The translations under genes were made by a program, and so were the position numbers. DNA of 37,656 nucleotides from Thermoanaerobaculia bacterium (lineage in GTDB: Bacteria; Acidobacteriota; Thermoanaerobaculia; Multivoradales; J023): assembly GCA_028066595.1 (NCBI GenBank), contig JALCBJ010000010.1, positions 78,762 to 116,417 of the forward strand, written 5' to 3'. Below are positions 4,000 to 23,380 of this stretch, one piece after another (position 1 is the stretch's first letter; each line of letters opens with the position of its first letter). A model generated the notes under the pieces. That model ran no database searches. It worked only from the letters and a program-made list of their open reading frames with translations, and was not told the origin of the DNA.

Positions 4000-5766
4000 T
4001 CAAGGCGTGGCGGCCATCTCAGACTGGATCCAGCGCTCGATCTTGGCTTCCAATGCGATCAGCGGCAGCGGGCCGTCATCCAGCACGGCCTCATGGAAGG
4101 CGCGGATATCGAATGCGCTGCCCAGGCTTTCCTCGGCGCGGGTGCGCAGCTCGCTGATCTTCCGTTCGCCGATGGTGTAGGCCAGAGCCTGGCCGGGAAT
4201 GGTGGTATATCGGCCGATCTCGCCCCGTGCCCAGTCGAGCTGCCGGCGACCGAGCTGAGACCGTGCCTCTTCCAGGTCCCAGCCGAAGTGATGGATGCCG
4301 ACGTCGCCGACGAGGCGACCCGCTCGGCCGAGGGCGAATCGCTCGCGCCCGACCCGTGACGTCGGGTCGCGGTACAGGCCCAGCTCCTCGCCCAACGATT
4401 CGGCATAGAGGGCCCAGCCTTCCACGAATGCACCGAAGTAGCCGTAGCGAAGGAAGTCCGGCACGTCCTCGAGCTCCTGGGCGAGCGCGATCTGGTAGTG
4501 GTGTCCGGGAATGGCCTCGTGCAAGAAGAGTACCTCTGCATTGGCCAGGTCGAATCCGCCGGGCTGCAAGAAGAAGGTCCCCGGACGAGGATCTCCCGGT
4601 GTCGGACCACGATAGAACGCTCCCCCGAGGCTTGTCATGTGGGGCTCGACGAAGCGGACGGCCAAGGGAGCCTCGGGCCGGTGGAGGAAGAGACGGTCGA
4701 GCCTTTGCCCGACCGACTCCTCCAGGCTGCGGAACGTGGCGAGCACCTGATCGTCGTCCCGTGTGAATCGGCTGGTCGCTTCCGCCGCAAGCCGCTGCTG
4801 GACGCGGAGAGAACGCTTGCGGCGACGAGATTCGGATTCCCCCAGAGCGAAGACCTCCTCGGGGCCCAGCTCGGTCGTCGTGAAGTAGCGAACCAGGCTC
4901 CGGTACAGCTCGGCACCGCCATCGAGCTCGCCCAAGCCCAGATCGTCGCGCGCGGTGGTGAGATATTCGCGGGTCAAGAAGGCGTGGAACCGTGCATAGG
5001 CTGGGACGACGAGCGTACGGGTCGCGGTTTCCAGCTCTTCTCGCAGCGCCTGGAGCTGATCGGGCGGCAGGCCAAGCCCCTCGGCCGTTTCGAGGGGGCG
5101 TTGGAAGACGGTGTCGCCTAGGGGCCCGCCGACCATGCCCGCGATAGCCTGGATCTCACGCGCCACGACAAGCTTCGGGTGAACGAAGCCGCGCTCGGCA
5201 CCACGGCGCAGATTGTCGATCGCCTGATCGACCCAGCGAACGAGGTCGTTCGCGCGGGAGGCATACGCGCGGAGATCCTCGGCCGAATCCATGGCCAGGT
5301 CGGCGTCGCCGGCGGCCACGCCGGCGAACTCGCTCGGGAAATCGGCGCCCGGGATGAGAGGCAGAAGGTGGAGCGGTCGATCGAGCAGCTCCAGTTGCAT
5401 GTCGACAAGCCAACGAAAGGCCTCAGCCCAGGTCCGACGCCGGGCGTCGAGCTCGTCGAGCGGGATTGCACGGGCGTCGCGCGCGGCGCGTTGATAGATC
5501 TCCCGGCTGCGAGCGCGGTACGCCTCGCTCAGATCGACGGTCATGCGGCCGACGGACCGGCCATCTCCCACCCGATTGGCCAGGCTCGGATCATGGTCGA
5601 GGCGTGCCTGGAATGTGGTGTGGAACAGTGCGTCGAGGCGCTGGGCGGCCGGCTCTATCTCTTCGGCCGCCGCAAGTTCCGGTGCTTGTTCGGCTGTGGC
5701 GAGCGGTGGCGCCCAACAGAGCCAAAGCAGCGCGCCGACGAGTGGGAATCTTCGCAGGGACATCAT
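4000..5766 (-). CDS. Exported DUF885 family protein (predicted zinc metallopeptidase-like)
   Basis: I take the first of two adjacent ATG codons as the start (588 residues), because it begins a clear signal peptide: MMSLRRF, then a hydrophobic core, then PLATA before EQAPE. The longer open frame upstream is Arg/Pro-rich and overlaps a different coding relic. The family signature HEAIPGHHYQ and the downstream FVEGWALYAESLGEELG fit DUF885, whose members are thought to be metal-dependent carboxypeptidase-like enzymes with an HExxxGH-type site; the substrate is unknown. The N-terminal half is helical and charged, as in the family. It heads a minus-strand run with the nuclease and gpmI. The ribosome binding site is weak. 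The family call is strong and the catalytic role is inferred. Confidence 0.88.
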   Translation of the reverse strand: MMSLRRFPLVGALLWLCWAPPLATAEQAPELAAAEEIEPAAQRLDALFHTTFQARLDHDPSLANRVGDGRSVGRMTVDLSEAYRARSREIYQRAARDARAIPLDELDARRRTWAEAFRWLVDMQLELLDRPLHLLPLIPGADFPSEFAGVAAGDADLAMDSAEDLRAYASRANDLVRWVDQAIDNLRRGAERGFVHPKLVVAREIQAIAGMVGGPLGDTVFQRPLETAEGLGLPPDQLQALREELETATRTLVVPAYARFHAFLTREYLTTARDDLGLGELDGGAELYRSLVRYFTTTELGPEEVFALGESESRRRKRSLRVQQRLAAEATSRFTRDDDQVLATFRSLEESVGQRLDRLFLHRPEAPLAVRFVEPHMTSLGGAFYRGPTPGDPRPGTFFLQPGGFDLANAEVLFLHEAIPGHHYQIALAQELEDVPDFLRYGYFGAFVEGWALYAESLGEELGLYRDPTSRVGRERFALGRAGRLVGDVGIHHFGWDLEEARSQLGRRQLDWARGEIGRYTTIPGQALAYTIGERKISELRTRAEESLGSAFDIRAFHEAVLDDGPLPLIALEAKIERWIQSEMAATP

Positions 5767-9582: not shown

Positions 9583-11553
9583 TCAGATCAGCTCTGCGTC
9601 CGAGACGATCTCCACCAGGGCCGGCCCGGGGTGGTCGAGGGCACGAGCCAATGCGTCGTCCAGATCGGACGCCGCGATCACGCGCTCGCCGTGGGCTCCG
9701 CAGAGCGTGGCGTACTCGGCAAAGTTCGGATTGTGCAACGAGGTCTGCCATACCTGCCAGTCGCCGGCCCGCTGCTCCTTGGAGATCTTGCCCAGCTCGG
9801 AATTGTTGAGCAGCACGTGGGTCACGTCCATCTCGTACTTGACGGCGGTCAGCAGCTCGCCCATGTACTGGCCGAAGCCGCCGTCGCCGGAGATCGACAC
9901 CACCTTGCGGCCTCGGTACGGGCCGTCCTCCTGGGTCGCAGCCCAGGCACCGAGCGCGGCTGGCAGCCCATAGCCGATGGAGCCGAGATAGCCGGACATG
10001 AGCACCGCCTGGGCGGTGCACTCGAAATAGCGGCCGAAGGAGTACGTGTTGTTGCCCACGTCCACGGCGAGGATCGCGTCGTCGGGTACCCGACGGGTGA
10101 GGGCGGCGAAGATCGAAGCCGAGTTGACCCCATGACCTCGGTCGTCGCCCAACCGGCGCTCCTTTTCCTGCCTCCAGATCTTCCATCGCTCGGCGATTTC
10201 GGGTCTCTGATCGACGGTTCCGCCGTGGTTGCGGAGTTTCTCGAGCAAGATCCCCGCGGTGACTCCGATCTCACCCCAGACCGGCACCTCGACCGCGTGG
10301 AACTTGCCGAGGGCCATGGCGTCGAAGTCGACCTGGATGATGGGCTTCTTCGGCGTGATCCCGGTGTGGTTGGAGAAGCTGGCGCCGAATACGAGTAGCA
10401 CGTCGCTCTCGTTCATGAACCAGCTCGCGATCGGCGTGCCGCTCCGACCGAGCACGCCGCAACCGAGGGGATGACGGTCCGAGACCAGTCCCTTACCCTT
10501 GAACGTGGTGAGGATCGGCGCATTCAGATGCTCAGCCAGGGCGAGGACGCCATCCATGTGAAACCGTGCGCCGTGGCCGACGATGATCACCGGCCGTCGA
10601 GACGCCTCGAGCCGGTGCACCGCCGCGTCGACGGACTCGGCCGGTGGGGTGATTTCCCGCGGCGTGAGGCGACCCGTCGGACCGCCGGCTTTGGCGCGGT
10701 CAGCGGCGGGTTGCGTCTGTACCTCGTCGGGAAAGATGAGGTGCGACACGCCGCGGTTTAGGATCGCGCTCTTGGTCGCCAGATTGACCAGCTCGGCGTG
10801 GCGGGATCCGGGCAGCACCGTCTGGCTCCATTGCGCCACCTTGCCAAAGGCGGCCACCAGATCGACCTCCTGGAACGCACCCGGGCCGAGGACCTGCGTG
10901 TCCACCTGGCCGGTGAGTGCCAGTACCGGCGAGCGGTCGACGTTGGCGTCCCACAGTCCGGTGAGCAGATTAGTCGCACCGGGTCCGGCGATGGACAGAC
11001 AGGCTGCTGGCCGGCCCGTCAGCTTGCCGTAGGCGGAGCAGGCGAATGAAGCAGCGCCTTCGTGGCGGATGCCGTAGTAGGTCAGGCCCTCATCCTCGGC
11101 CTGCCGGCGCAAGGCCTCGGCCAGACCCAGGTTGGAATGACCCACCATGCCGAAGACCTGTCGAACACCCCAGGCGACGAGGGTCTCCGCCATCACGTCC
11201 GACACCGTGCGGACGGGCGGCGCATCCTGCTCGATGCCGACATAGACGCCGTCCTCCCGAACCTCGACGGGGTAGGTGGCGACGCCATCGTCGTAGCCGC
11301 CCGGCGGCTTGCCCGTGACCGGGTCGAAGTCCCAGCCGTGCCACGGGCAGCGCAGCCAACCGTTCTCGATGGAACCTTCCCCCAACGGGCCGCCTTGGTG
11401 CGGGCATTTGTTGTCGAGGGCGGAGTAGTTTCCGTCGACGCGACTGATGCACACCGTGTGGAGTCCGCACGTCACGGGTTTGACCCGACCTTCGGGCAGC
11501 TCCTCCAGCCCGAGAGCCTTGTACCAGACGACGCCTTCCGCTGAATCCGCCAT
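9583..11553 (-). CDS. Rieske [2Fe-2S] domain fused to a thiamine diphosphate-dependent enzyme (pyruvate oxidase/acetolactate synthase-like)
   Basis: 656 residues. Residues 1-110 form a Rieske ferredoxin domain with the complete cluster motif: C50-P-H52 in CPHQGG and C69-P-W-H72 in CPWHGW. Residues about 115-656 are a full three-domain ThDP enzyme. It has the catalytic glutamate in RHEGAASFA (E165) and the AGPGATN loop. The middle domain includes a VFGASFSN stretch. The C-terminal ThDP/Mg motif is GDGGFG...LLNNSELG (about 555-585). The closest named relatives are pyruvate oxidase, acetolactate synthase and related 2-oxoacid decarboxylases; the substrate cannot be read from sequence. No signal peptide, so cytoplasmic. 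GGAGA lies five bases before the ATG. It is first in an operon with a di-heme cytochrome c and a haem-b membrane protein, which suggests electrons leave via the Rieske cluster. Confidence 0.9.
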   Translation of the reverse strand: MADSAEGVVWYKALGLEELPEGRVKPVTCGLHTVCISRVDGNYSALDNKCPHQGGPLGEGSIENGWLRCPWHGWDFDPVTGKPPGGYDDGVATYPVEVREDGVYVGIEQDAPPVRTVSDVMAETLVAWGVRQVFGMVGHSNLGLAEALRRQAEDEGLTYYGIRHEGAASFACSAYGKLTGRPAACLSIAGPGATNLLTGLWDANVDRSPVLALTGQVDTQVLGPGAFQEVDLVAAFGKVAQWSQTVLPGSRHAELVNLATKSAILNRGVSHLIFPDEVQTQPAADRAKAGGPTGRLTPREITPPAESVDAAVHRLEASRRPVIIVGHGARFHMDGVLALAEHLNAPILTTFKGKGLVSDRHPLGCGVLGRSGTPIASWFMNESDVLLVFGASFSNHTGITPKKPIIQVDFDAMALGKFHAVEVPVWGEIGVTAGILLEKLRNHGGTVDQRPEIAERWKIWRQEKERRLGDDRGHGVNSASIFAALTRRVPDDAILAVDVGNNTYSFGRYFECTAQAVLMSGYLGSIGYGLPAALGAWAATQEDGPYRGRKVVSISGDGGFGQYMGELLTAVKYEMDVTHVLLNNSELGKISKEQRAGDWQVWQTSLHNPNFAEYATLCGAHGERVIAASDLDDALARALDHPGPALVEIVSDAELI

Positions 11554-11625: not shown

Positions 11626-12001
11626 GGTAGCCTACGGACGGGAGCGTGCTACGGATCCTACCTCGGTCTTCCCGAGGTCCCGTCGCGGCTACGTGCCGAG
11701 TGGAACGTGTGGGGTTCCATTCGTCGCCAACCTGTGATTGACGGAGAGAACGTGCTACTTTTCCCTGGCGAGCAGCTCGCTCGCTCCTCTCCTTTCCTCT
11801 CCAAGTTCGACTGATGACGCGAATCTCCTGGGCTCGGCCGTTGGAGATTAGTGCATTCTGAGTCAGCTGATCTCGTCAATTCGACTGAAATCGAATCGAG
11901 ATCTAGCGGGGACGAATATCTCGGACCAGCGAGACCAGATCTTTTCGCCGTGTTCTCGAGATTATCGTAAAAACTAGAGTAAATCTGTTAAGATCAAAGA
12001 G
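11626..12001. promoter_or_regulatory. Divergent intergenic region with clustered TCTCG/CGAGA inverted repeats before the HTH-TPR gene
   Basis: There is no convincing gene in this stretch between the redox operon and the regulator gene. It is more AT-rich than its surroundings near the regulator start (AAAAACTAGAGTAAATCTG). Several symmetric elements share a half-site: CGAGAT at 11897-11902 pairs with ATCTCG at 11918-11923, TCTCG-N6-CGAGA spans 11919-11934, and the palindrome TCTCGAGA lies at 11954-11961, about 40-48 bases before the regulator ATG. Such clusters often mark an operator, here perhaps for autoregulation. No clear -35/-10 pair was found. Confidence 0.45.
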
Positions 12002-13408
12002 ATGAAATCCGATACCGCTCATCACCGCATCCGCTCCGCGCTTCGCGCCGAGCTGAAGCGTCGGCATGGGCAGATCGGACAGATCGAAGCCGACCTGGTT
12101 CGCAGCGAAGGCTATTTGAGCAGGTTCTGCCGCGGGGACATGGATCTGTCCCTCAAGGGGTGTCTCGAGGTGCTCGAGGCGCTCGAGATCCAGCCCGGCT
12201 CCTTCTTCGCGGAGGCCTTCGGAACCGTCACGGCTTCCGAGGACATCCTCCGTACTCTGGAGGGGCCTGGGCCCTTCGATCGAGGCATTACGGCGTTCGA
12301 TCAGGCTGCCTTGGATCTCGAGATGACCGAGATCGAGGAGAGCAACCGTCGTCGACACAGGGTCAGCGTCGAGGAATTCGTCCAGGAGCCGGTGGAGGTC
12401 CAGCTGCGTCGCCTGCGTAATGGCCAGAAGTACCGCGACGAGCGGTTTGTTGGCCAGTACCTGGAATACCTGGAGCGTTTCCGTTTCGACGAGCCCAAGG
12501 CAGCATCTCGGTTGGTCGTCGGGTTGGCGGCCCATGTCATTCCGGAGCTGCCGTTGCCGGCTGCGGGACGCGCAGCGTGGTTGTGTCAGGGCATCGAAGT
12601 CTTCGGTTCTGGTTTGCGCTCCTTATCGGACTCGAAGTCCGCGGCCCGGTTGCTTCGACTGGGCGTCCGATTAAGCCAGCGGCACGACCTACCAGCGCAT
12701 AGATCGGCCCTACTGCGGCGCGCTACATTCGTAGCATCCGACTCCGCAGAGTATGAAAAAGGTGTCTTTTTGGTCCGAGAGGCGCAAGCGATCGCTTGGG
12801 AGTTGGGCGATCAAAAGAACCTTGCGCTTGCGACGATCACCAACGCGATACTCAACAACCTTAGGGGCCGTCTGACCCCGGCCGAACAGGGCTTCAAAAG
12901 AGGCTTGGAAGTCCTTCGCGGTTTAGATGACACTGAGATACGCCTTTGGCGAGCAACCGCTTTCTCCGGCCTGGTCAACGTCTTCATAAAGCGTGATGAC
13001 ATCCACGAGGCATTGCGATGGATGGGACGAGCGACCCACGCTTTCCAGGACGAAGGCGGACTTGCCCTAGGAAAGCTCCTATGGCAGCAAGGCATCTTAG
13101 AACGAATGGTCGGCCGGTACGAGCAGGCGGTTGAGACACTGTCTGCTTGTCGCAGACTTCTCGAACGCGGTAACCGGATCGACTACGCCCTGATTTCTAT
13201 TGAGCTGACTAGCTTGCTACTAGAGATGGGTCGCCGCGAAGAGGCCTACGAGGTTGCGAAAGGTATGGCTGCGTTGACAGGGGATCTGCGAGATAACAAG
13301 GTCGCCCAGGCCGCACTGGTCGAATTCATGAGAATCGTCCTGGCCGGGGGCCTAGGCCGAGACCAGCTTCAATCGCTCAAAGAGACCATCGAAGCGGGGC
13401 ACTCCTAG
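12002..13408 (+). CDS. HTH-TPR transcriptional regulator (Rgg/PlcR-like architecture)
   Basis: 468 residues. The N-terminal 75 or so residues look like a small XRE-type helix-turn-helix domain: QIEADLVRSEGYLSRFCRG (about 26-44), then LSLKGCLEVLEALEIQPGSFF, the usual last helices and cap of such domains. From about 190 to 460 the protein is all-helical with TPR-like repeats, for example EALRWMGRATHAFQDEGGL and RYEQAVETLSACRRLLERG. No membrane segment, kinase or ATPase motif is present. HTH plus TPR is the layout of RRNPP regulators, which bind short imported peptides; that this one does so is inference. By eye the second half uses more A/T-ending codons than its neighbours, which may mark transfer. 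It converges on a small exported peptide gene. Start context AAGATCAAAGAG is a weak ribosome binding site. Confidence 0.72.
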   Translation: MKSDTAHHRIRSALRAELKRRHGQIGQIEADLVRSEGYLSRFCRGDMDLSLKGCLEVLEALEIQPGSFFAEAFGTVTASEDILRTLEGPGPFDRGITAFDQAALDLEMTEIEESNRRRHRVSVEEFVQEPVEVQLRRLRNGQKYRDERFVGQYLEYLERFRFDEPKAASRLVVGLAAHVIPELPLPAAGRAAWLCQGIEVFGSGLRSLSDSKSAARLLRLGVRLSQRHDLPAHRSALLRRATFVASDSAEYEKGVFLVREAQAIAWELGDQKNLALATITNAILNNLRGRLTPAEQGFKRGLEVLRGLDDTEIRLWRATAFSGLVNVFIKRDDIHEALRWMGRATHAFQDEGGLALGKLLWQQGILERMVGRYEQAVETLSACRRLLERGNRIDYALISIELTSLLLEMGRREEAYEVAKGMAALTGDLRDNKVAQAALVEFMRIVLAGGLGRDQLQSLKETIEAGHS

Positions 13409-13457
13409 CAGAGTGCCCCTGCTCCTAAACGTTGAGGCGTCCTCCGAAAGGAGCGCC
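13396..13457. terminator. Two stem-loops between the convergent regulator and peptide genes
   Basis: A perfect nine-base-pair hairpin, GGGGCACTC-N6-GAGTGCCCC (13396-13419), straddles the stop codon of the regulator gene. A second hairpin, GGCG-TC-CTCC-GAAA-GGAG-CGCC, occupies 13436-13457. Neither has a T tract, so they may act as RNA-stabilising or Rho-related ends instead of classic intrinsic terminators. Their position suits termination from both directions. Confidence 0.5.
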
Positions 13458-13487
13458 CCTGTCTGAGAGTTGGTAGAGGGCTCAGCG

Positions 13488-13751
13488 TCAGCAGCCGGGG
13501 CCGTTGGGTTCGATGCCTGGACCGAGTTCACCACCACCAGGTGAGCAATTCGTCGCCATCGTCGGCGTCGGCTTCTTCTGCCGTGCCGGAGCCTCCGACG
13601 CTTCCTCGTCGCCGCCGACCCAGCTCTTGACGATTTCGACGAGGTTGGAAATCCAGGAGCCGGACGACCCGTCTGCGGCGAAAGCGGCGGGGGCGAGGGT
13701 GAGGCAGGCAACCAGGAGGATGGCGGTGGGTGTATTGAGTTTGCGGATCAT
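13488..13751 (-). CDS. Small exported peptide precursor, 87 residues, Gly/Pro-rich Cys-terminated tail
   Basis: The ATG at 13751 has an AGGAG ribosome binding site seven bases upstream. Residues 1-25 are a textbook signal peptide ending AFA before ADGSS. The mature 62 residues comprise a short amphipathic stretch (SWISNLVEIVKSWVGG), an acidic/basic hinge (DEEASEAPARQKKP) and a tail GGGELGPGIEPNGPGC. Only two cysteines follow the signal peptide (C69 and C87); they could form a disulfide. I do not recognise a named family; similar tails with a G-x-IxPNG motif next to HTH-TPR genes are, as far as I recall, found in other Acidobacteriota, which cannot be checked here. It is convergent with the HTH-TPR gene, 79 bases apart. 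A signalling or bacteriocin-like role is speculation; the exported-peptide reading is well supported. Confidence 0.75.
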   Translation of the reverse strand: MIRKLNTPTAILLVACLTLAPAAFAADGSSGSWISNLVEIVKSWVGGDEEASEAPARQKKPTPTMATNCSPGGGELGPGIEPNGPGC

Positions 13752-14093
13752 CTCCGTGCTCCTTTCGTGGAGTGGCCGCCACGACCCCCATGGCCGAGGA
13801 GACCGTTCCATCCGTTCGTGCTTTTCGACAGGATATCCGCCCATCCTGGTGACGGACGCAGTCTCTCTGTCGATCGGTTCTTGTAGTGACCCTACTCGAC
13901 TCGAGAACTAAGCTGCAGCGGTCTCGGACCCGCAACCACGGTGTGTCGGGTCGGTGGCTCACTCGATGGGACGTGACCGGTACGGCGATTTCCTTTCGCT
14001 GAGGTCTCCCGATCGTCCATCCGGCGTCGGTGAAGAAATTGCTATCTTCGGTCGTACTCCAGGGCAAACCAGGACTGACCGAGAGGAATCCAC
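13752..14093. promoter_or_regulatory. Divergent intergenic region upstream of the exported peptide gene
   Basis: 342 bases without a convincing gene. On the minus strand at 13908-13900 it carries GTTCTCGAG, the same nine bases found at 11952-11960 in front of the HTH-TPR gene and in the same orientation relative to the gene it precedes (about 150 bases from the peptide ATG). The right end holds GAGAGGA, the ribosome binding site of the GTG start at 14094. No tRNA or other RNA gene seen. Confidence 0.35.
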
Positions 14094-22000: not shown

Positions 22001-23098
22001 GAGTTCCATGCCCGGCATCTTTGGCTGGCCCTGCGCTCGGGTGAGGCACAGCGCATCGCACGAGGCCTGGCGATGGAGGTTTTCTTCGGAGCCATGGAGG
22101 GCGGCGACGCCGACGAGGCTCTGGCGCGGGCGCGGGAAACGGCTGGCAAAGTGGAGGGCTTCTACGCCTCCAGCTTGACGGAGATGGCTTCGGGGATGAT
22201 TTCGTGCTCGCGGGGACGATGGGCGGAAGCGGCGCGCAGGCTGCGGCGAGCCGAACGTCACCTGGCGGAGACTCGGCGCGGGGTCACCTGGGAGCTCGAC
22301 ACCGTGCGCCAGTTCCGCACTCTGGCTCGGCTCCATCTGGGACGCTGGAACGAGATCTTCGCCGAGCTGCCGATGCTGATGGATCAGGCTCGGGACCAGG
22401 ACGACCTGTACTTGGAAGTCCATCTACACCACTGGGTCGAGCAGCTACAGGCGGTCGCGGCGGACCGACTCGACGAGGCAGAGTCCAGCCTGGCCACCAG
22501 CTTCGAGGGCTGGTCCCATGAAGGGTTTCACTACCAGCACTTCGGTCGCCTGGTAGCGAAGACGCGGCTGCTGCTCTATCGGGGATTGGGACTGGCCGCC
22601 TGGCATGAGGTCGCACAGTGTTGGCCGCGTCTCCAGGCTTCTATGATTCAGCGTATCGAGATGGTGCAGGTGCAGAGCCACGACCTGCGGGCGCGCTGCG
22701 CTTTGGCGGCGGCTGCATCGTCCGCCGACATCGATCCGATGGAGCTACGCTCCGCGCGGGCCGTCGCGGAGGCGGACGCCCGTCGATTGGAACGAGCCGG
22801 ATCGAACTGGACCCTCGGTCTCGGACGTACACTGCACGCCGGGCTGGCGACCCTCGAAGGGGACCGGGATCGCGTCATCGAGCATCTAGCGGTGGCGCGG
22901 TCCGCCTTCGAGGCTGCCGAGATGAGCGTCCACGCGGCGATCGCTCGACGAAGGATGGGCCAAGTACTGGGACACGACGTGGACGTCCGCGCCGCTGACG
23001 ACCTGCTCCGTCTAGGCAACGGGATCGTGCGCCCGGACCGCATCGCCGACGTCGGTGCACCGGGCCGTTGGGCCACGGTACAGCGATCGTCTGCCTGA
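19052..23098 (+). CDS. Giant Ser/Thr protein kinase / STAND-type ATPase / TPR signalling protein (PknK-like)
   Basis: 1348 residues from ATG 19052; upstream in-frame codons overlap the divergent promoter and have no kinase similarity. Residues 41-300 form a Hanks kinase domain: glycine loop VGSGAFGVVYEA, VALK (K70), VHRDIKPPN (D164), DFG (D182) and GTPAYMAPEQ. A Ser/Pro/Thr-rich linker (about 300-380) leads to an ATPase starting FVGRRELLDEL with Walker A GVSGMGKT (K419) and Walker B LVVVVDDLQW (D546-D547). From about 800 to 1300 it is helical and TPR-like. This is the architecture of mycobacterial PknK and related MalT-like kinases; no DNA-binding domain is seen. No transmembrane segment, so cytoplasmic. 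The likely partner gene is the divergent VWA-like/TPR protein; the input signal is unknown. Confidence 0.92.
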   Translation: MNRAEPSEVAISSPGPSSSARTPESTAAWPDAESFAGTERFLVQRRVGSGAFGVVYEAFDRRDRSRVALKVLRSAEADALYRFKKGFRSLADLRHPNLVSFYELITEDGMWFFSMELIDGVEFIEALCGRPECSTDEYERIRRLGWQLAAGLDAVHRSGIVHRDIKPPNVLVTPRDGLKLLDFGLITELRQRPELRSDDHQMVGTPAYMAPEQAHGDLSNPASDWYSVGVMLFQVMTGELPYSGSLMQILTQKLKGPPPDLLRRRVAEVPEDLEELVLGLLRPEPEHRWTAERVLEAFQAGSAGNGTPSTESRANGDGVDLPETRSAATSREGVATRSAENGSLDASRSGGPPTPSRSPTPAPAMVAGRSPLAEESGTVSFSAPFVGRRELLDELHDAVTESRKKPVFARLRGVSGMGKTALLERFLLEIEERAPHAVVLAGRCYVQESVPYKALDSVVDALSRYLMALPTRDVEVLLPTHTAALAQLFPVLLRVKAVAAAPRPTDTETDEGSWTSPQARRRRAFDALRELIARLALRHTLVVVVDDLQWGDVDSFIVLDELFAAGDPPPFLFVGSYRREDTESSAFVSALEERIDSGGWPKVAVQTLRVGELSVDEASELLRRLHGGELSMEHLESVLGEAAGSPLFLSELARHVQTLDEADQVDARRRKRPGGSTAEVHLRDVLRARVEALAAPARRLLEVVAVAGQPLPTAVARRAAGIDAESSAAMADLRTGRFVRLSRLASKLQQAGTEDREQVESYHDRIRETVLDTLSEEELRRQHGLLAEALEASGDADPETLAMHFQATEEADRASCYAVDAARRAENALAFARAARLYRLALDLLPPTSDERYDLEVRLGQALAGAGRSRDAADTFLSAVHHSGRADPVDVQRHAAERLLVSGHIDRGLAVLRHVLRTTGMELETRRWRSLAKLWYLRLRLRLRGLQYETRSEDDIDPESLQRIDVCWSVVVGLCLVDVLHASEFHARHLWLALRSGEAQRIARGLAMEVFFGAMEGGDADEALARARETAGKVEGFYASSLTEMASGMISCSRGRWAEAARRLRRAERHLAETRRGVTWELDTVRQFRTLARLHLGRWNEIFAELPMLMDQARDQDDLYLEVHLHHWVEQLQAVAADRLDEAESSLATSFEGWSHEGFHYQHFGRLVAKTRLLLYRGLGLAAWHEVAQCWPRLQASMIQRIEMVQVQSHDLRARCALAAAASSADIDPMELRSARAVAEADARRLERAGSNWTLGLGRTLHAGLATLEGDRDRVIEHLAVARSAFEAAEMSVHAAIARRRMGQVLGHDVDVRAADDLLRLGNGIVRPDRIADVGAPGRWATVQRSSA

Positions 23099-23182
23099 GT
23101 CACCGACGCTTCAGATCGATGGGGCGAGCCGGCCTGGGTACCAGGCGCCTACGTCAGGTGCGCAACGCCGGGGGTGGACACC

Positions 23183-23380
23183 TCAGACGGTCGGCCGGCC
23201 GGCGAACCACAGCTCGTCATACGCCGTGACCGCGTCGTCGGTCTCGGCCGTTTCCTCGAGCAGACTGCGCGCGAAGGCGGAAGGACGGCGGGGTGGCACG
23301 AATACCGGTCCGGCTTCCGGAGTCGTCGGCCGGTCGATCGTGTTCGTATGGGAGTGGGTGCCGGCTTGGATCAAGACCAT
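23183..23380 (-). CDS. Small ORF, 65 residues, unknown (weak DUF4129-tail resemblance)
   Basis: The ATG at 23380 is preceded by GAAGGA about nine bases upstream, which favours translation. The sequence contains VPPRRPSAFARSLLEETAET and ends AYDELWFAGRPTV. The ending resembles by eye the C-terminal tail of DUF4129/transglutaminase-type proteins (TP-EFA-x-L ... AYE-x-x-RYGGRP), so it may be a relic of a larger gene or a chance likeness. No signal peptide or membrane segment. It is convergent with the large kinase gene; a hairpin GCCTGG-GTA-CCAGGC at 23132-23146 lies between them. Confidence 0.35.
   Translation of the reverse strand: MVLIQAGTHSHTNTIDRPTTPEAGPVFVPPRRPSAFARSLLEETAETDDAVTAYDELWFAGRPTV

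Follow-up and report, generated by a model that had tools for sequence, protein, structure and literature searches.

A gene for a helix-turn-helix (HTH) and tetratricopeptide repeat (TPR) protein faces a gene for a small, putatively exported peptide in a 37,656-nucleotide stretch of DNA from a Thermoanaerobaculia bacterium (Acidobacteriota; GenBank assembly GCA_028066595.1, contig JALCBJ010000010.1, positions 78,762 to 116,417), hereafter the window. These genes appear to be one copy of a recurrent two-gene unit, likely an intracellular receptor with its peptide signal that resembles the RRNPP systems (Rap, Rgg, NprR, PlcR, PrgX) in an acidobacterial host; judged from sequence, we give this reading about an even chance. 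Sequence comparison establishes the pairing in several lineages, a code in the peptide tail, the repetition of that code and the presence of different N-terminal modules on the TPR partner. The original prediction, made from the letters of the window, had placed an HTH-TPR gene beside an exported-peptide open reading frame (ORF). This was confirmed (468 and 87 amino acids (aa), with a gap of 79 bp between the convergent genes), and the arrangement recurs in relatives on a larger scale than had been stated. The locus comprises the following features.

12002..13408, + strand: HTH-TPR protein of 468 aa, predicted cytoplasmic peptide receptor/regulator (ORF; relatives P0004–P0008; AlphaFold2 model)
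12002..12217, + strand: N-terminal XRE-type HTH domain, residues 1–72 of the HTH-TPR protein
12437..13402, + strand: TPR superhelix, residues 146–467 of the HTH-TPR protein, predicted peptide-binding part
13488..13751, − strand: gene of the 87-aa peptide precursor, convergent to the regulator gene (ORF; relatives P0002 and P0003)
13759..13766, − strand: ribosome binding site GAAAGGAG of the peptide gene (direct reading of the sequence)
13677..13751, − strand: predicted Sec signal peptide, residues 1–25, AFA|AD (hydrophobicity rule; conservation in P0002 and P0003)
13617..13655, − strand: Trp-containing stretch WISNLVEIVKSWV, residues 33–45, possibly amphipathic (Trp is common in paired peptides)
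13500..13529, − strand: tail motif ELGPGIEPNG, residues 75–84, proposed as the active unit, between Cys69 and Cys87 (family motif)

By a crude hydrophobicity rule the window precursor has a basic start, a hydrophobic core and an AxA site, and it ends in the tail CSPGGGELGPGIEPNGPGC. It matched no family in Pfam or NCBIfam, and a Pfam search of the regulator gave weak TPR matches only. The AlphaFold2 model of the regulator has a predicted local distance difference test score of 83.7. Its N-terminus shows the five-helix XRE HTH fold, with HTH matches that include Rgg2, PrgX and ComR, and the modelled TPR part matches peptide-binding TPR proteins, Rap and NprR among them. Profile A5 reaches RapF at E 1.2e-5, behind many unrelated TPR proteins. 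The HTH-plus-TPR layout and the compact tail described in the original prediction are real, and both recur in related genomes.

Searches with phmmer returned relatives of the regulator (P0004–P0008) at 62–36% identity and two relatives of the peptide (P0002 and P0003). P0002 and P0004 both lie on 2,460-base contigs, P0003 and P0005 both on 7,539-base contigs; because peptide and regulator relatives share contigs of equal size, P0002/P0004 and P0003/P0005 are very likely pairs. Conservation within the window clade amounts to 76–85% in the HTH and 27–60% in the TPR region of the regulator, and to 85–88% in the signal part (residues 1–26, against P0002 and P0003), 19–36% in the middle and 62–65% in the tail of the peptide. 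The window's own genome contains a second convergent HTH-TPR/peptide pair (contig C167, tail GEHGPHSDPSGCP), and a genome of the same genus, G001, has one pair (L252, tail NIGGGSDPWG). A peptide profile (A1) gave 23 matches at E ≤ 1e-3, spread over 14 of the 148 genomes of the class. A TPR gene is present at 20 of the 23 loci, or at 12 of 15 once the eight profile members are set aside, and the three loci lacking a TPR gene also lack the tail.

The association was quantified on TPR genes of 59 relatives, ranked by profile A3, which was built from 17 receptors, 15 of them picked beside a peptide; this ranking may favour paired kinds of TPR gene at the top ranks. The sample consists of 40 regions around TPR genes outside the profile (588,140 bases; 54 TPR genes). 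ORFs combining a signal-peptide start, a ribosome binding site and the tail number 31 in the 91,622 bases within 1 kb of TPR genes and zero in the 420,804 bases away from them, and a peptide passing the tail rule adjoins 29 of the 54 TPR genes. The tail rule was widened after part of the sample peptides were known; the earlier, fixed rule gives 25 near and none far. Signal-peptide ORFs with variant tails stand beside some of the other TPR genes (for example, L147, L151, L155 and L157).

Whole-genome searches of a 99%-complete genome, G012, at E ≤ 0.01 gave 26 TPR and 22 peptide matches. Of the latter, 21 fall inside the 1.6% of the genome that is no more than 1 kb from a TPR match (P = 3e-37); internal stops mark one of these 21 (C12:143512) as a probable false match; with six members of the peptide profile removed, 15 of 16 peptides are near a TPR match (P = 1.4e-26). 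A peptide occurs within 1 kb of 24 of the 26 TPR matches, and because some of these share one peptide, the genome holds approximately 20 pairs. The profile overlooked the tail-bearing neighbour (GPYLDPDG) of one of the two lone TPR genes (L227).

The consensus of 98 tail copies (overlapping counts) is [ED]-x-G-[PSGA]-x-[IML]-[DE]-P-[ND]-G. Two to four copies are present in 24 of 74 precursors, as counted by a simple pattern with a few doubtful cases. Copies agree at 60% of variable positions within precursors and at 27% between them, a difference reached by none of 2,000 shuffles. Paired peptides are 45–129 aa long, and 72 of 75 have a Trp within residues 25–75. Among the 74 precursors, 52 have no Cys after residue 26, 17 have two and three have one, a distribution that hints at disulfides in part of the family, the window's precursor included; of the 70 peptides whose motif could be scored, six have Cys on both sides of it. 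Ten relatives of the window peptide gave nothing over the cut-off in Pfam or NCBIfam; one of the ten has a weak Ibs_toxin match (E 0.05, far under the cut-off).

The partner family is more varied than the window alone would indicate. After duplicate removal, 145 TPR genes were compiled in a collection enriched for pairs, and 82 of them have a rule-passing peptide. The original prediction had tied the peptide to an adjacent HTH-TPR gene and named a peptide occurring mostly without one as a reason to abandon the idea; taken literally, that is what was found, as most tail peptides adjoin a TPR gene without an HTH. In 57 of the 82 paired genes an H-x-C-x2-C (zinc-knuckle) pattern near the N-terminus takes the place of the HTH, and two of ten tested relatives gave zf-HC2 matches (20.8 and 15.3 bits, compared with a Pfam cut-off of 22.2). 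Rap is not known to have a DNA-binding domain. The nearest peptide of the 82 genes lies upstream on the same strand in 61 cases, convergent in 16, downstream on the same strand in five and divergent in none. HTH-type TPR genes, recognised by eye, number 14, and six of them are paired (the window, L011, L017, L042, L060 and L252), all convergently.

All strong matches so far fall in the window's order; the candidates from another family of the class are weak. Of twelve named loci, 11 belong to records that bear the label Thermoanaerobaculum, Thermoanaerobaculia, Holophagales or Acidobacteria, and one to a record labelled Deltaproteobacteria. The same contig of the Deltaproteobacteria-labelled record (P_S1_bin.14; L178, G010:C19) is placed in the window's order, and the label is probably an error. 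In a draw across the phylum, in which 13 candidates were scored per genome so that the count is a lower bound, at least 4 of 396 genomes match at E ≤ 1e-5; three, the window's own genome among them, belong to the window's order. The fourth (G340) was rejected as probably a chance match, lying inside a 370-aa frame with no TPR gene. Class family f10 gave weak matches to profile A4; in one of its genomes (G062) a TPR gene stands beside a signal-peptide ORF ending TDPDGGVIQIPGG, and in another (G059) beside one without the tail. No window-clade relatives were found among GTDB genome contigs, and two queries returned no viral copies.

Flat co-variation, orphan peptides and peptide-free receptors call for caution about a peptide receptor, and these and several further observations weigh against it. 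The co-variation of peptide and regulator envisaged in the original prediction did not materialise: tail and TPR similarity are uncorrelated overall (Mantel rho 0.014, a value reached by 207 of 500 permutations) and at TPR identity under 45% (rho −0.039), and greater tail similarity (0.36–0.41 versus 0.26–0.32) is confined to pairs whose TPR identity exceeds 40%. Five TPR and five peptide matches were obtained in the window's own genome; those on C132 and C167 form pairs, and on C166 the adjoining signal-peptide ORF ends GPLIIPNG (L216). Three of the five peptides are orphans, with no TPR gene within about 5, 5 and 1.5 kb of C43, C142 and C148, respectively; no peptide was detected at the AraC-TPR gene on C28, the surroundings of which are partly masked, or at the HTH+TPR locus on C138. 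The four-copy peptide of G012 (L202) is likewise an orphan, with no TPR gene within approximately 5 kb. A tail-rule peptide adjoins none of the 18 TPR genes of G003, which belongs to the window's family, 0 of 6 in G043 and 1 of 4 in G001, relatives chosen for having many TPR genes and few peptide matches, compared with 24 of 26 in G012 and 29 of 54 in the sample of 40 regions; pairing depends on lineage. Next to two TPR genes of G003 there are signal-peptide ORFs that end in variant tails (MGPVIYPTG and LGTHIVPDG), and in G001 an additional, weaker TPR gene is accompanied by a convergent ORF with the ending VGPGMVPIG (L079). The other eight of the 14 HTH-type genes are unpaired (L014, L177, L255, L250, L254, L258, L260 and L261), five of them G003 genes with no detected peptide (L250, L254, L258, L260 and L261). 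LGN and other non-signalling TPR proteins fit the window fold better than Rap or NprR, no operator shared by the regulator and peptide upstream regions was found, and an 'HN' motif was dropped as an argument for the window, since it is frequent in the family and missing from the five HTH-type paired receptors checked. A diderm envelope and possible disulfides also make re-import less simple.

Some individual loci deserve description. The orphan on C43 (L199, G000:C43:18000-28000, approximately 22920–23204 of the contig) is a signal-peptide ORF with three EGYPFVDPIG copies, and L202 (G012:C1:238000-248000, 4812–5180, − strand) encodes a precursor of 122 aa in which an ELGPGADPDG-type tail occurs four times. 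The HTH of the peptide-free G003 gene L258 closely resembles that of the window. An AraC-type HTH is fused to the same TPR module in genes of the window's family with no peptide neighbour detected (L012 2559–4382, L102, L117 and L118); these may be a natural negative control or 'eavesdroppers'. In L014 (1793–3305, − strand, own genome), an HTH frame and then a TPR frame of the same family occupy two reading frames, which could reflect gene breakage, a frameshift from assembly or two separate genes.

Candidate regulatory elements were rejected. A 41-column match between 11891–11930 and 13896–13933 is not significant (its score is reached by 40 of 500 shuffles and by 20 of 149 other window segments), a 15-mer pattern allowing up to two mismatches was found twice against 1.2 expected, and promoter and terminator scans gave nothing above shuffles. 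A survey of 42 loci for recurrent neighbours (ORFs of 130 aa and more) yielded the TPR genes, their antisense frame and one small family without assignment; the last occurs at five loci and comes within 500 bp of the TPR gene at three of them. Families of importers or proteases were not observed to recur beside the pair. The original prediction had noted no oligopeptide importer in the window, and Opp-type binding proteins are present elsewhere in the genome (seven SBP_bac_5 matches).

In the receptor-and-signal reading, the precursor would be exported by Sec and trimmed outside the inner membrane to one or more units of the [ED]xGPx[IM]DPNG type, that of the window perhaps closed by a Cys69–Cys87 disulfide. 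An oligopeptide importer would then return the unit to the cytoplasm, where its binding in the TPR superhelix groove would switch the N-terminal output module, presumably the XRE-type HTH in the window and the zinc-knuckle domain in most paired relatives. Peptide-free TPR genes might listen to unlinked or foreign peptides or respond to another ligand. Pairing, layout, tail and the fold matches to peptide-binding TPR proteins (Rap and NprR) speak for the peptide signalling put forward in the original prediction; signalling itself we infer from these features. More tentatively, the pairs may form an independent peptide-code network of diderm bacteria, with approximately 20 parallel pairs per genome, tandem [ED]xGPx[IM]DPNG pheromones, some of them disulfide-closed, and an output module (XRE HTH or zinc knuckle) that is exchanged while the peptide partnership is kept; we regard this as plausible, if rather short of probable.

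The main rival holds that the peptide is an output, that is, a secreted effector (antimicrobial, envelope-active or matrix) whose gene is controlled locally by a TPR protein sensing something else. The orientation of the peptide gene is conserved (same-strand upstream or convergent), in keeping with local control, and the Trp that follows the signal peptide in 72 of 75 peptides might reflect activity on membranes. Divergence of the TPR proteins is not mirrored in the tails overall, and many TPR genes, HTH types included, lack a peptide. A C-terminal code that is repeated and homogenised within precursors is nevertheless what is expected of a recognised unit, and TPR proteins with differing N-termini retain the same kind of partner; we consider this explanation unlikely, though a serious one. 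The TPR protein might instead handle the precursor before export, as a cytoplasmic chaperone or a sensor of unexported precursor, the pair then reporting on secretion or cell state with no extracellular signal. A cytoplasmic protein could indeed meet the precursor prior to export, the closest solved TPR folds are scaffold TPRs, and no recurrent importer or protease family was recognised beside the pair; yet the window-clade peptides conserve the signal part and the tail and not the middle, and a chaperone client would have no evident need of tandem tails. We rate this reading as improbable.

A toxin–immunity or toxin–antitoxin pair, in which a dedicated TPR antagonist accompanies a small membrane-active peptide, would account for the small hydrophobic N-terminus, the dedicated neighbour and the many paralogous pairs in one genome, and the weak Ibs_toxin match points the same way. 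Orphan peptides without a TPR neighbour exist, however, the partners bear DNA-binding or zinc-knuckle domains, and the ten peptides gave no other toxin-like match; we rate such a pair as very improbable. That the window peptide is a chance ORF beside an ordinary TPR regulator is scarcely credible: short ORFs with a hydrophobic start do arise by chance (14, with any tail, in the 421 kb away from TPR genes), but this is contradicted by the 31 versus zero tail-bearing ORFs near and far, by the pairing in G012, by the peptide and regulator relatives on same-sized contigs and by the strong ribosome binding site.

If the receptor-and-signal reading is true, approximately 20 pairs in one acidobacterial genome would mean that the same logic arose or spread beyond Bacillota and operates across two membranes, and a role would become likely for many TPR proteins annotated only as repeats and for the precursors, of which ten tested examples stayed under every Pfam and NCBIfam cut-off. 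Each pair offers a short, synthesisable peptide, so that direct testing is feasible. Elsewhere in the window (9583–11553, − strand), a Rieske [2Fe-2S] domain and a complete thiamine-diphosphate enzyme are fused in one 656-aa frame.

The available parts of two accounts (PMC10075063, PMC9765709) present the detection of exported peptides by TPR receptors inside the cell as a trait of Bacillota. No report of such pairs in Acidobacteriota was found in a literature search that fell short of most subscription journals and preprints. The RRNPP signature, as given in the accessible sections of its publication (PMC10075063), comprises a small Sec-exported propeptide (10–100 aa) and a TPR receptor of 250–500 aa, as direct neighbours at −60 to 400 bp. 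The window has a propeptide of 87 aa, a TPR-containing receptor of 468 aa and a spacing of 79 bp; its signal-peptide features are recognised by the crude rule alone and conserved in P0002 and P0003. Multi-pheromone propeptides and receptors without propeptides have been described for RRNPPA systems, which include AimR (excerpts of PMC9765709 and PMC11343458). A peptide receptor with its signal is the best reading because the window agrees with this signature, secretion being judged by the crude rule, and because multi-unit precursors and many pairs per genome have precedents in RRNPPA systems and in Paenibacillus.

As in the RRNPP and RRNPPA systems, a 250–500-aa TPR receptor stands directly beside a small precursor, here with a predicted signal peptide, with HTH and TPR combined in the window; unlike them, the host belongs to Acidobacteriota, the precursor carries a Trp stretch and a DPNG-type tail, and most pairs have the zinc-knuckle pattern in place of the HTH. 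The likeness is drawn from sequence and predicted fold; the unit would resemble RRNPP systems in its working, and descent from them would be a separate claim, Rap and NprR appearing mixed with other TPR folds among the matches. Most paired partners, though not the window's, have an N-terminal H-x-C-x2-C pattern that recalls zf-HC2 and zinc-knuckle anti-sigma-type domains, with scores under the Pfam cut-off. The Alo system (aloR-aloP) of Paenibacillus has many paralogous TPR receptor/propeptide pairs per genome and some peptide-free receptors (PMC7425212, sections available), as do the present genomes; according to the same sections, aloP ORFs encode 32–50 aa and follow the receptor gene, whereas the precursors here have 45–129 aa, lie mostly upstream on the same strand or convergent, and belong to another phylum. 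In Rap-Phr of phages Phi3T and Phi105, the available text describes several pheromone units per precursor, freed by proteolysis (PMC11343458); the precursors described here share this arrangement and differ in carrying up to four units.
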